DNA from: Romanomermis culicivorax
Taxonomy: Eukaryota; Nematoda; Enoplea; Mermithida; Mermithidae
Assembly: GCA_963922205.1 (NCBI GenBank)
Contig: CAWUHX010000015.1
Coordinates: 496,001-560,000, forward strand
DNA: 64,000 nt
Direction of reading: 5' to 3'
Shown here: piece by piece, positions 39,158 through 60,000 of the stretch
Layout: each line of letters starts with the position of its first letter
How positions within the stretch are numbered: the first letter of the stretch is position 1
Notes under the pieces: generated by a model
Databases searched by the model: none
Told to the model about the DNA's origin: nothing
The model's input: the letters and a program-made list of their open reading frames with translations, nothing else
Translations under genes and position numbers: made by a program

Positions 39158-42100
39158 TCACTTCAATAATTTCGCATTCGTTTTGGGCGTATTCTTAGAT
39201 GCTAATAATGCTAAATCCTTAATCTTTTCATCACTCAATGAACGCGCATTGACCATTGATCCGTGGGAATATTCTGAAAAAAATTATTTCGTAACGCGAG
39301 CGATAACAATGATACGACAAAAATGCCCCAAATTTCACGTGAAGTTTAACTAATATTTAAAACGAAATCAATAATCAAGGGAGCATAGTCTTCAGCCAAA
39401 GACACTCGTAGTACGAAATGATCAACGAACGAACTTACTCTTTAAGTAAGTGTGATTCAATAATTCTTCGACGCTAGCTCTCTTCCTGGGATCCCTTTCC
39501 AAGCATCTCTGCATGACGTTTAACAAATTGAGATCTTCGATCGGCTCGAATTCGATTTGATATTTACAGTTAGTTATGGCAAACATTTTACAGTTGTTCG
39601 GCACATGTTCGAAAGGCGTCTTACCGTAAACCATGTAATACAGTATACAACCTAAAGACCATACATCGCTTTTAACACCAACCTGGAAGAAAGAGAAGAA
39701 TTATCAAGCGAAGATAATCGTTATATCAAAACGAAAATATACTCTGAATTTGCATCGGTCGACATCTTCAAAAGATGACAATGCTTCGGGGCTCATATAA
39801 TTTGGTGTTCCCATTTGGCATTCTTTAGTTACGGAAGTTTTATTGCTCGGAACGGCATTAGCAATTCCGAAATCGATCAATTTAACCTGGCCACCGACAA
39901 TAAGAAAATTTCTCGGTTTCAAGTCGGAATGGACAATGCCTGAAAAACATAAACAACCGCAATTAATATAAGGTGAAAGACATTCTGTATGAGGAAAATT
40001 AAACATTACAGAAAAATCGATTTTTTTTCAATTTCGACACAATAAATTATGTAGATAGAACTTGGATCAGTCACACAACTTTAAAGGCCCCTTTGGCTCT
40101 TTGCTTTCCATTTTCTAGGCGTTTCGCAAAAATTTTTCTTATCGAAGTATTTCCGAGCATATTTCTATACGCTAGGAACGTATCTAGTTTTACCTTTCTG
40201 GTGAACAACTTGAACAGCTTTGAGCATTTCAGACCAATAAAATGCTAACGTTAAATAATCAAGACGGTTCTGACCGCGTTTTTTGAAAAATGTAGCCAAA
40301 TCAGTATCGCCTTTTTCCATCACGACGTAAAGCATTTGCTCCTGGGATACATAGTCGCTGAAAGGAAAATATGTCAAGGAATTCATAACAGAGAAGTGAG
40401 AAAACGTGTTTTGAGGTAATAAAATTACTGCAGCCTTACGTGTCGAAAAACATTCAAATAAAAATCAAAGTTCTGATCACAAAGCCAAAAAATAGCTCTT
40501 GAAATTAGATAAGTCGTAAATTTTTTATCACCATAAACTCGAAAACATGACAACAAAATTTTAAGCGGCAATTATACAATGGCAAAATAATGCTATCATT
40601 GCTTTTTCTGATCATCATTACACTTCAAGAATGATACATTACTATCTTATCATATACTTTTCATTTCAATTTTGAAGAAACGACAACTTACTAATCAAAC
40701 ATTTTAACTACGCGGTTCGAAGATTGTAAAGCCTTCAGGAGCCATATTTCATTCTTATAAGCTTTAATGAGAATATCGTCAGCGTCCGATAAGTCGACGC
40801 ATTTAATGGCGTAGCAAACTTTAGATTCTTCGTTGTATGCTTGATAAACCTCAATAGGAACATTCAGAATCATGTCATCAAACTGCTACCGTCAACGATG
40901 TGATTGATTAAAAAAAGCTCACTACACATGAACCCCCTCGGCCAAGAACGTTTAATACTAAATATTCGTTGTTACTGACGCGCAAAACTTTTTTAGGCTT
41001 CCGATTAACGTCGACAACAAAAGGTGAACACGGATCAGCCGTTTGGCATGCGATATTCTGATAGTCAGCTACGTTGGAAGTTGACGGAGCTTCTCTACTT
41101 TCGACTGATTGTCTGAAAAGTGGAAAATATCTATTCGATGGCAATAGTATGGAGGGAAACCTGATAACATTAAACGAAATAAAAAACTTTTAGTGCAGGG
41201 CAAAATTTTTTGTCAGTATAGAAATTGTTTTGCAATTATTGGTACCAGGGTGTCCAGCGGTTTCCCAAAATGAAATTCCCTGACTTCTTCAGGTTTTCCA
41301 GGTCATTGTTCCAGAATTTTCCTGATTTTTTCAGAGCAAGAATCATCAATAATTCCTACGTAAAGTGGGAAAAAGGTGTGTACCAGGAGGCAGACCGAAC
41401 AATGCGCTAAGGTTTTCCATCAGCTAAACTGTGCCGTCAACAAACTAGAAAACCAAAAAATCAGCTGAGAGTCAACCAATTTTTATAAGTAAGGTTAGAA
41501 CAGCAAAGATCAAATCAGTTTTGGACTGAAAAAGGCAAGTGATACTCAGAAATCAGGCAATCAACCAAAAAATTCAGATTGTTCAACCGGAAAGAACTTC
41601 TGCCATTGCCTCGCTCTGACTAGGAGGTTAAATACGTGTAACATTATAAGGCAGACACGATAATAAAAATTCTATTAAATTAGTTTTGAAATACTTTCAC
41701 AATGTTTTTTTGTTTCAGAAATTTGTGAGCTCAACAATTTTTTTAAAAATCAATTTCCTCCAATTTCGCGTTATTTATGTTTCGAAAATTTAATTTTAGC
41801 TGGCGCATTTTTCGTTTTAGTTGCTGTTCGTTTTCTATAAGTAGCTTTTTTTTATTCTTTGACAGCCAATTTTTCACAATTGTGTAAAGGACCCAAATTT
41901 TTCCTTCGTATGAAAGATTTTTTAAACGCGTTTTCTACTCAAAACAGGCTACTAGGGTTGCTGTTAGTGAGCAAGTTAAAATAATGAGTAATTATTGTAG
42001 TGGTACCGACGTTTTGAGTGGGATATCCGCACCCTAATTAAGCGCTTAACCTGTTTTATTCCTACTAAACATAAATTACCTTTTTCATTTACCGAAGACA

Positions 42101-55853: not shown

Positions 55854-56538
55854 CATACCTGTAAGAGATCCCACCAGTTGGGGGGGGGGGGGGGTAAATC
55901 CGAAATTTTGGGGGCAGGGGTCGAAAAGAGTCGAAATTTTTCCCAAAAAGGCCAAAAACATACACTTTTTTTGCCAATTTTTACCAAGCTGGGTGTGAGG
56001 GGGAGTTGGGTATATGATTGGCCAAGTTGGGGGAGGGGTCTCCCCAATTACAGGTATGGTTATTATCCCGACCAGTTGGGGGGGGGGGGTGGGGTAAATC
56101 CAAAATTTGGGGGGGGGGGTAGAAAAAAGTCGAAATTTTTCCCAAAAAAAGCCAAAAAAAATAAGGGCAAATTTTTTTAATTTTTCCCGAACTGGGGGAG
56201 GGGGTTGGGGGGGAGGTTGAATGATTTTGGGTACAGGCATACCTGTAAGACTTCCGACCAGTTGGGGGGTAGGTAAATCCGAAATTTTGGGGGGGGGGGG
56301 TAGGAAAAAGTCGAAATTTTTCCCAAAAAAGGCCAAAAAACATACACTTTTTGGCAAATTTTTTAAATTTTTTCCCAACTGGGGGGGGGGGGTTGGGGGG
56401 GGGAATGATTTTGGGTACTGGGTCGGCCAAGTTGGGGGGGGGGGGGTCCCCCCCAACCCCCCAAGTACAGGTATGGGTACAGGGTTGGCCAAATTAGGGG
56501 GGTCCCCACCCCCAACCCCCCCCCCAAGTACAGGTATG
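55854..56538. mobile_element. Concatemer of G-rich MITE units
   Basis: Three to four ~200-bp units, each with ACCAGTTGGGG, AAAGTCGAAATTTTTCCC and a TTGG-G-run, separated by junctions such as TACAGGCATACCTGTAAG (56232-56249), where the right end of one unit meets the left end of the next. Outer ends CATACCTGTA and TACAGGTATG are inverted repeats; flanks are ATTATTAT and GTTATTATT. Many G runs of 6-13 bases on the plus strand. Long proline-rich open frames on the minus strand are a by-product of the G runs. Confidence 0.75.
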
Positions 56539-56688
56539 GTTATTATTACACCCATGACCGGCGCGAAGCACCGAAAAATTTTGAGATTTCGACCCTTTTA
56601 AGTTCACCAAAACGCGTCTTTTAGGTTTTGAATTCCCAAAAAATTTTACACAATGAGAACCATGCCTAAAATTTTTTTCCTCATTTCA

Positions 56689-56712
56689 GTACTCTGCGTT
56701 GATACCACTGCT
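56689..56712 (-). other. SMART adapter sequence (artefact), left of gap
   Basis: The 24 bases before the N run are the reverse complement of the SMART template-switch/PCR oligo (its core reads GTGGTATCAACGCAGAG). Library-derived, not genomic. Confidence 0.95.
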
Positions 56713-56812
56713 NNNNNNNNNNNNNNNNNNNNNNNNNNNNNNNNNNNNNNNNNNNNNNNNNNNNNNNNNNNNNNNNNNNNNNNNNNNNNNNNNNNNNNNN
56801 NNNNNNNNNNNN
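56713..56812. other. Assembly gap of exactly 100 N
   Basis: A round 100-N run marks a scaffold join of unknown true length. Adapter sequence stands on both sides. Confidence 0.99.
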
Positions 56813-56828
56813 CACACTCTATCAGATT

Positions 56829-56853
56829 AAGCAGTGGTATCAACGCAGAGTAC
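56829..56853 (+). other. SMART adapter sequence (artefact), right of gap
   Basis: The same oligo in forward orientation (starts AAGCAGTGGTATCAACGC), 16 bases after the N run; the 16 bases CACACTCTATCAGATT between are of uncertain origin. Confidence 0.95.
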
Positions 56854-57075
56854 TTGCAAATAATGAATATCATGCGTAAGCGGCCTCATTTTTTCTCGCC
56901 CGCGAACGTGAAAAAATGAGAGAGAAATCAGTGATTCAGGTTCTTAATGGTGGAAACAACGTTTCGAGCTGCCGAGACTCATATGGAAAAACTGGAAACA
57001 AAACGAGTGTCATTAAGTGAAGATACTGTGAAGTTATTGACCTGATTACATAAAAAAGGCTAATCACTTTCTTAC

Positions 57076-60000
57076 CAGCAGAAACTAAACCTTTGCCGCC
57101 TTGCACCAGTTCGGAAGTCATTTGATCATCGTCGATGAATTGTTCGATGCCGATATAATGTAAACATTTCGTAGCTAAACGGAAATAAGTGGCCAAACAG
57201 AACAGTAGAACGGCCGCCGGGAAGTAGACGTTGAATCCGTTCACGATAAAAGGCATGACGTCCATGTGACCCATAAACTCAAAATTAGATGAAAAGAGTA
57301 AATTCTTAATTTCAGTATTTCTAGGGTTTATCTAAAACTCAGCGTCGGATAGAGCAACAGCCGGTTTTAAAAATTTCTGAGTAAAGTCAGCATTCCAAAC
57401 TTGAATTAGGCTTTCGGATATCGCAGATTTTACCTCAAAAATTGATGGATCCGGATCAAGTTTCGGTTTTCATACATACCCAAAAAGGTTACCTAATGTA
57501 CATCTGACTAGAGAAATTGAATTGTCGAGAATCTATATTAAAAAGGTATTGCAATTTTTTGTCAGTTTTTTCAATTCGAAAAACTTCGAGTTGAACTGTA
57601 AATTTCAGGAAATCACTCCAATGATGCTTATGAATTCAAATAAAAAAGTTAGAAAAATTAAATTTTGACTTTTAAAATGCACCGAAATTCATCTTTTTTA
57701 TATTGAATTCTCATAGTTTTCGCGTTTCCAGAAAATGTTCCTCTAGGGTAGGATTTTCGAAAACACAAGAGATAGATCAATCCGAAAAATTGCAGAATGA
57801 AATCCGGCGCGAAATCTGATAAATTTCTCGGTGTTTTCTGATTTTGGAGCATACAGAACATTTGTTTAAAATCTAGAATTGAATGAAAATAACGATAATT
57901 CTCTAATATAAATGAATAAATCAAAATTTTTACGAGCCAAAATGACCTCCAGACCTAAATCATTAGGAGCCATTTCCAAATTTTTTAGGGGCCCAGGCCT
58001 CCAAAATGACTAAAAAAGCCTACTACATACACAATTATTCAAATGCATTATACATATATACGCTATACACGATATTCAGTTTCGATCAGAGTCTACCCGA
58101 TCTACTGTTCTGGTTCAGGGTCGTGCGAAAGCAGTTTTATGGATCAGGATTCGATGAGGCAATGTTTTAGGATCTGAATCCGGATCCGATGTAGTGGAAA
58201 AAGTGGATCCGTCCCATCTCTAGCAGTCAGTATCTATCTTTTTTAAATCACGGAAATTTTTGCGGGAATTTCTCGGGAGAAACAGTAATTTCGGATCGAG
58301 AACATGTGGACGATGCTACCGTCGGAATCGACGAAAAGATGCATCTTCCAACGATTTAGATAAGTCAAAACGAAAATTTTCAACAATAGTAACTCATTTT
58401 ATGCCTTTTGTATCACGGTTGCAGTCGTAAGTATGATTGTTTCTCTGTGGCATTGCTGAATATGGATACTGTGCTTCACATACTTTTAGATTAGATTGAT
58501 CACTTTTACGTTAAGTGAAAACTCAAAAAATTTGAAATTTTTGGTGCACTTACTCTCAATTAGTGACATAAGTATTTTTTGCTCAATTATGCCAAAATAT
58601 TATTGTTCAGTTATGAAAACACTTACATTTAGTGGTTTTACCGTGAATCGCTTAAACAATCATTTTGTTTTGATATTTAGTAAGTCAACTTTCCTCACAT
58701 CTTAACTCATATCTATGATGATGGCCAAAAAGCAGAACAAATTCCAGGTTTGAAAAAAAGCTAAAATTACTTACCGAAGTATACGCGGTTTCGAGCGGCA
58801 TGGGTACGTGCGTTACATGACTGTCCATATGGATCAAACTGAGGAAGTTCAAACATAAAGGTGGCGTTAAACGACAAAATAATCTGGAATTCGAAAAAAA
58901 TTTTAATCTGCCTGCAATGCGGTTGCAAACTGAAAATTATAAAAGAACCAGTGTCCAAAAAAATCAGAATCGCATATTCAAGTGATGCATGAATAATCAT
59001 TCATTTCAAACCCAAGAAGCCTTTGAACTTGTGTCCATTTACATCAGAGATGCACGGAGTAATTTTATCGGGTGGGAGAGTCTAAAAGTACAAATTTAGG
59101 GGAGATGTGTGCGAGGGGTAAAAATTTCTTCCAAAAAAAACTAATTTTGACAGAAAAACCTGGATTTTGGATTTTTTTTCGAAATTCATTTAGGAGGGTT
59201 CACTCCCCCCAACATATCGTCGGTAGCATCCAGGAAAGTAATAAATTCAGTTTTCACAAAATTGGAGTTATCACTATTTTCGAGGTCTACTTGCACATCT
59301 TTTTCATATGTAAAAATATATATTTTTTAGATTTGTTTTCTCTGGACAACAAAATTTTAGGAAACGAGCGTGAGTATGGAACAGCTAAAGTTTATTGTAT
59401 TTAGACTTATAATTCAATACAAGATGCTGACCATACATGTTCATAGGGGTGGAGGGTAGATCCTCCTAACTGAGACCCTGCACATCCCTTTGGCCCGAAA
59501 AAGTCGTCAAACATCATCCCTAAACTTTTTCGAAGAGTTATTTATTGATGATTTTTAGGCATATTTTGTATGAAAAACATGCTTGTGGAGCTTTATTTTT
59601 GTTTTTGCCCACCCACACTCCACCTCCTCAATGAAAATCTGAGGAGCCACAACCCTGAAAAATTCTTGTCGTGCATATCTAATGCTGACTGTCCTGAACA
59701 TTACTGGGTTCCAAGAATCATAAGTAGATTAAAAGAATCGTTAACAAATGGAATGCTCCAGCAGACAAACGAAATCATATTGTAGAAAAATCAGTCCTCA
59801 TTCTGAAATTGAACGGATTCGAGGAACGTGAACTGTTTCATATTTCATCTTCTACGTCGCAAAATTCCGAACGAAAACACCAATTCCATAGTTTTAAAGA
59901 TTAATGTGAATTGAAGAATATAGATTTTGATACGAACTTTTGCATACTTCTTCAAGATCTTTTGGTGATTCAAATGAAAACAAAACATAAAAAATGTTTG

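Follow-up and report, generated by a model that had tools for sequence, protein, structure and literature searches.

The scaffold gap and its surroundings

The only Ns in the window, that is, in the whole 64-kb stretch of DNA that was analysed, are found at positions 56713–56812 and make up a scaffold gap with a length of exactly 100 N. At the end of the left contig stands AGTACTCTGCGTTGATACCACTGCT (56688–56712), which corresponds in reverse-complement form to 25 of the 26 bases of an amplification adapter. This minus-strand copy lacks only the outermost base of the adapter. The right contig starts with CACACTCTATCAGATT (56813–56828), followed by the complete 26-nt adapter, AAGCAGTGGTATCAACGCAGAGTACT, on the plus strand (56829–56854). 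The 16 bases between the gap and the right adapter, read on the same strand, consist of 15 of the 16 bases of the PacBio barcode bc1019 (ACACACTCTATCAGAT) and one T. The original prediction had described the adapter on both sides of a 100-N gap with coordinates accurate to within one base, and this was correct. The observation therefore stands as far as the adapter is concerned, but the barcode bc1019, which is part of the same oligonucleotide chain, had gone unremarked.

Right of the gap, matches to an LMBR1-family gene are situated on the minus strand at scaffold positions 571,454 down to 553,176. We take this gene to be LMBRD2. The Pfam match nearest to the gap comprises window positions 57176–57280 and lies in a frame extending from 56936 to 57331. 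By eye the exon was extended to 57076, where it is followed by an apparent splice donor (57075–57074), giving 57076–57280 on the minus strand as the last recognised coding stretch before the gap. Since the stretch ends in an apparent donor, the last exons of the gene should lie across the gap. Judged from the sequence, the gene thus appears to run into the gap and to have its 3' end beyond it. A second LMBR1-family gene was found twice in the assembly with near-equal internal spacing (G000:C9:305529–308495 and G000:C191:412729–415696), pointing to a haplotype duplicate that was not purged or to a recent copy.

In the left part of the window, at 39704–41189 on the minus strand, open frames were noticed by eye that look like the exons of a protein kinase, which we presume to be TTK/Mps1-like. 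Within this interval a single frame was scanned, and the Pfam domain Pkinase was confirmed in it at 39704–40027.

Near the end of the left contig there is a tandem repeat with a period of 181 bp and long G runs (56084–56418). Of the ten runs of 8 or more G or C in the window, eight are crowded into the last 830 bp or so of sequence before the gap (55880–56525), partly inside this repeat; when the window is divided into bins of 500 bp such a run occurs in 5 of the 128 bins. The tandem repeat with its G runs is a possible reason for the contig break at this place. As a general cause of the breaks, a dropout of coverage at G/C homopolymers was considered but not borne out by a significant enrichment. 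At the 70 edges of 35 gaps, the window's gap included, such runs were present within 500 bp of 10 edges and at a distance of 1.5–2 kb from 6 (Fisher p = 0.43). A wider test for low-complexity sequence at the gap edges gave 10 versus 7 of 70. Repeat text that looks similar by eye to the 181-bp repeat of the window also borders gaps in L035 and L069.

Copies of the adapter in the assembly

The assembly that was searched comprises 359,112,060 bases in 595 scaffolds. The 22-base core of the adapter occurs in it in 563 exact copies (256 forward and 307 reverse), the 26-mer AAGCAGTGGTATCAACGCAGAGTACT in 562 and the 25-mer without the outermost base in 828. Among these 25-mers are 266 copies lacking the outermost base, as at the left edge of the window's gap. 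The reversed control patterns of the core, the 26-mer and the 25-mer yielded no match in the whole assembly. About 2e-5 copies of the core would be expected by chance in 359 Mb; since 563 copies were found and none of the reversed control, a chance origin of the core is excluded.

The surroundings were read for 78 core copies (L009–L088; 77 of 100 listed places and one further place) and for 20 of the 266 shortened copies without the outermost base (L090–L109). All 98 copies, 78 of 78 with the core and 20 of 20 shortened ones, directly abut a gap or a scaffold end and point inward. The gaps met with in L009–L088 measure exactly 100 N in 51 of 51 cases, the window's gap included; these gaps were chosen for bearing an adapter, and the counts say nothing on adapter-free gaps.

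Identical copies numbering in the hundreds could also be taken for a real genomic repeat, or for a mobile element that contains the oligonucleotide by chance. We consider this extremely improbable, as the copies read lie without exception at gaps and ends of the assembly in inward orientation, the inserts are unrelated in the 78 copies with flanks, and a commercial barcode is found outside many of the copies. The recurrence of the same oligonucleotide at contig ends instead bears out the view of the original prediction that it is an artefact and not genomic. Both the exact 26-mer, with its 562 copies, and the inward placement at read or contig ends are as known for the PacBio genomic-DNA PCR (ultra-low-input) adapter.

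Chemistry and origin of the oligonucleotide

Directly outside the adapter, at least 15 exact nucleotides of bc1019 and a T were found in 303 of the 563 core copies. Among the 78 copies read, wherever at least 15 bases precede the adapter these are bc1019 plus T (in L071 with one irregularity), and the remaining, barcode-free copies stop at or beside the first base of the adapter. A barcode other than bc1019 was not seen among the 78 copies, bc1019 being the only one searched for. On the inner side, the core is followed by TACT in 77 of the 78 copies. The sole core copy departing from this, L070, shows TAAC. Beyond these four bases there are 78 different inserts with a roughly genomic composition, the first insert base being somewhat C-rich (0.29 of the 78 compared to 0.18 in the window).

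The original prediction had proposed that SMART-type cDNA or amplification chemistry was involved in the library. The first 22–23 bases of the adapter are the SMART/ISPCR primer sequence, common to the template-switch and ISPCR primers of SMART and Smart-seq. For this reason one could suppose that template-switching cDNA was present in the library and that the contigs are partly derived from cDNA. In SMART cDNA, GGG follows the template-switch oligonucleotide, or T30 follows the oligo-dT primer. Unlike such products, none of the 78 copies read has GGG after the adapter, and in none do nine or more T follow in a row; there is a single T and then an insert which is different in each copy. In addition, the matches to the LMBR1-family gene right of the gap are scattered in pieces along some 18 kb of the scaffold, which is the pattern of a gene with introns. 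We therefore regard cDNA as a very unlikely source, and this part of the proposal was not upheld. The part concerning amplification was, as the barcode, the adapter and the varied inserts fit the amplification of genomic DNA for PacBio sequencing. The sequence context makes a SMART-derived primer, used as ligated PCR adapter for genomic DNA, the best interpretation of the oligonucleotide. We assume that the adapter belongs to the PacBio ultra-low input kit, a name which is based in part on the papers cited below.

The sequence of bc1019 is given in Table 4 of PMC7962047, and 15 or 16 of its 16 bases are identical here, outside the adapter and one T. In the primers described there the barcode is part of amplicon primers, whereas here it is situated outside a PCR adapter. 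In PMC12613986 the same 26-mer is named as an adapter contaminating PacBio HiFi reads that was removed with lima, followed by pbmarkdup; the word ultra-low is absent from the passage concerned. The two sequences are identical, but in the present case the adapter was left in the assembly instead of being trimmed. According to the relevant passages of other papers, the SMRT Link pipeline "Trim gDNA Amplification Adapters" was applied to ultra-low-input data (PMC10565955), and in the ultra-low-input protocol lima served to remove PCR adapters and pbmarkdup to remove PCR duplicates (PMC11809032, PMC11907880). In at least seven other papers the 26-mer also begins longer oligonucleotides, mostly in transcriptome work, which are presumably SMART oligo-dT primers. 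Because these longer oligonucleotides open with the same bases, the 26-mer alone is undecisive concerning the chemistry, and it is the missing T run that decides.

We are highly confident that the oligonucleotide at the gap is a technical artefact, namely untrimmed PCR adapter and barcode from an amplified PacBio library of genomic DNA. Its sequence and orientation, the contig-end position in every copy read, the barcode and the inserts were observed directly; the course of events leading to them would be as follows. Shearing and A-tailing of the genomic DNA would have been followed by ligation of a PCR adapter with a T overhang, AAGCAGTGGTATCAACGCAGAGTACT. The ligated DNA would have been amplified, and the PacBio SMRTbell library made from it would have been barcoded with bc1019. 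The HiFi reads would then have been assembled with the PCR adapter untrimmed and, in part of the reads, with the barcode untrimmed as well. Wherever no read extended a contig, its terminus would be the end of the last read and would consist of the adapter, sometimes together with the barcode. In a later scaffolding step the contigs would have been ordered by other evidence and a fixed stretch of 100 N put between them. Untrimmed read ends would explain the inward orientation, the occurrence at joined as well as unjoined ends and the partial barcodes.

Concerning the breaks themselves, a passage of PMC11809032 attributes read-free regions in a larger genome to PCR bias in the ultra-low-input protocol, and PCR bias may possibly lie behind the contig breaks here. 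Among the kinds of adapter contamination in HiFi contigs that PMC8864876 describes are, likewise, a contig with the adapter at its end and an inverted duplicate beside the adapter. The contaminated reads described there are rare and contain other PacBio adapters, whereas here a PCR adapter is found at hundreds of places. The artefact is of a known kind, a common lapse in data cleaning without biological meaning.

The adapter and the joining of contigs

The original prediction had further suggested that the scaffolder may have joined the two contigs through shared adapter-bearing reads, making the linkage of the transposon cluster at 44–56.7 kb to LMBRD2 doubtful. In that case a scaffolder or assembler would have linked unrelated contigs, and the cluster and LMBRD2 would not be neighbours. 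The presence of the adapter on both sides of the window's gap would be in line with such an event, and no overlap was found that bridges the gap. There is only an 8-base match at chance level near the tips, and when the whole flanks were compared they had only internal repeats in common. A scan of the left contig for phase-1 splice acceptors revealed no convincing LMBRD2 exon. Nor did the C-terminal tail of human LMBRD2 turn up in the left contig, and it had no match in the window that beat the reversed control, a weak test since this tail is expected to be poorly conserved. PMC8864876 reports mis-joins that arose from PacBio adapters in HiFi reads which had not been sanitised.

Against a join caused by the adapter stands the finding that the adapter is not confined to joined ends but is also present at scaffold starts and ends, which were never joined. 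Among the 50 scaffolds C1–C50 there are 15 with a core copy that starts at base 18 or before, and ten scaffold ends with adapter were read, all of them selected for having one. Six scaffold starts without a listed core copy were inspected as well; five were adapter-free and one carried the shortened form. Because unjoined starts and ends carry the adapter, its presence is independent of joining. Furthermore, the adapter is found on one side only in 41 of the 51 sampled adapter-bearing gaps and on both sides in the other 10, to which the window's gap belongs.

A terminal match between the contigs flanking a gap, in either orientation, was detected in 3 of 51 true pairs versus 1 of 2,550 mismatched pairs. 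In two of the 51 sampled joins the overlap is in the same orientation and backs the join. With the adapter set aside, the contigs at the L010 gap overlap by exactly 19 bp, and at the L079 gap (G000:C49:1365300–1370300) the overlap comprises 1,614 aligned bases with 99.75% identity. The 100-N gap of L079 stands for a redundant overlap and duplicates sequence. The third matching pair, L022, is in inverted orientation. No terminal overlap was present in 48 of the 51 sampled gaps, including the one in the window. Going by these sequence overlaps, at least some of the adapter-marked joins are very likely true.

The adapter is thus probably not the cause of the join in the window, and we consider it quite improbable that adapter-bearing reads led to the linking of unrelated contigs at this place. 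It is also unlikely, if to a slightly lesser degree, that the gap is a wrong join of whatever cause, such that LMBRD2 and the transposon-rich flank are not adjacent in the genome and some further adapter-marked joins of the assembly are wrong too.

At L022 (G000:C5:640500–641300) the sequence that directly follows the adapter in the right contig repeats the end of the left contig in inverted form. The copy consists of two matches of 83–89 bp with 83–86% identity and resembles the adapter-linked inverted duplicates described in part of PMC8864876.

Elsewhere in the assembly, a match to COX1 (Pfam positions 2–436) was found at G000:C117:992573–993922. It contains 11 TGA codons but no stop when translated with the invertebrate mitochondrial code, and some 39 kb separate it from the end of its scaffold of 1.03 Mb. 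Either the gene was copied into the nucleus recently, or mitochondrial sequence has been assigned to a nuclear scaffold.

The biological interest of the oligonucleotide is low, and its value is that of quality control and of a warning concerning the assembly. Annotation of this genome or the construction of repeat libraries would meet the adapter and barcode oligonucleotides as false repeats. At the same time, the adapters mark former contig ends, so that the adjoining joins can be located and rechecked.
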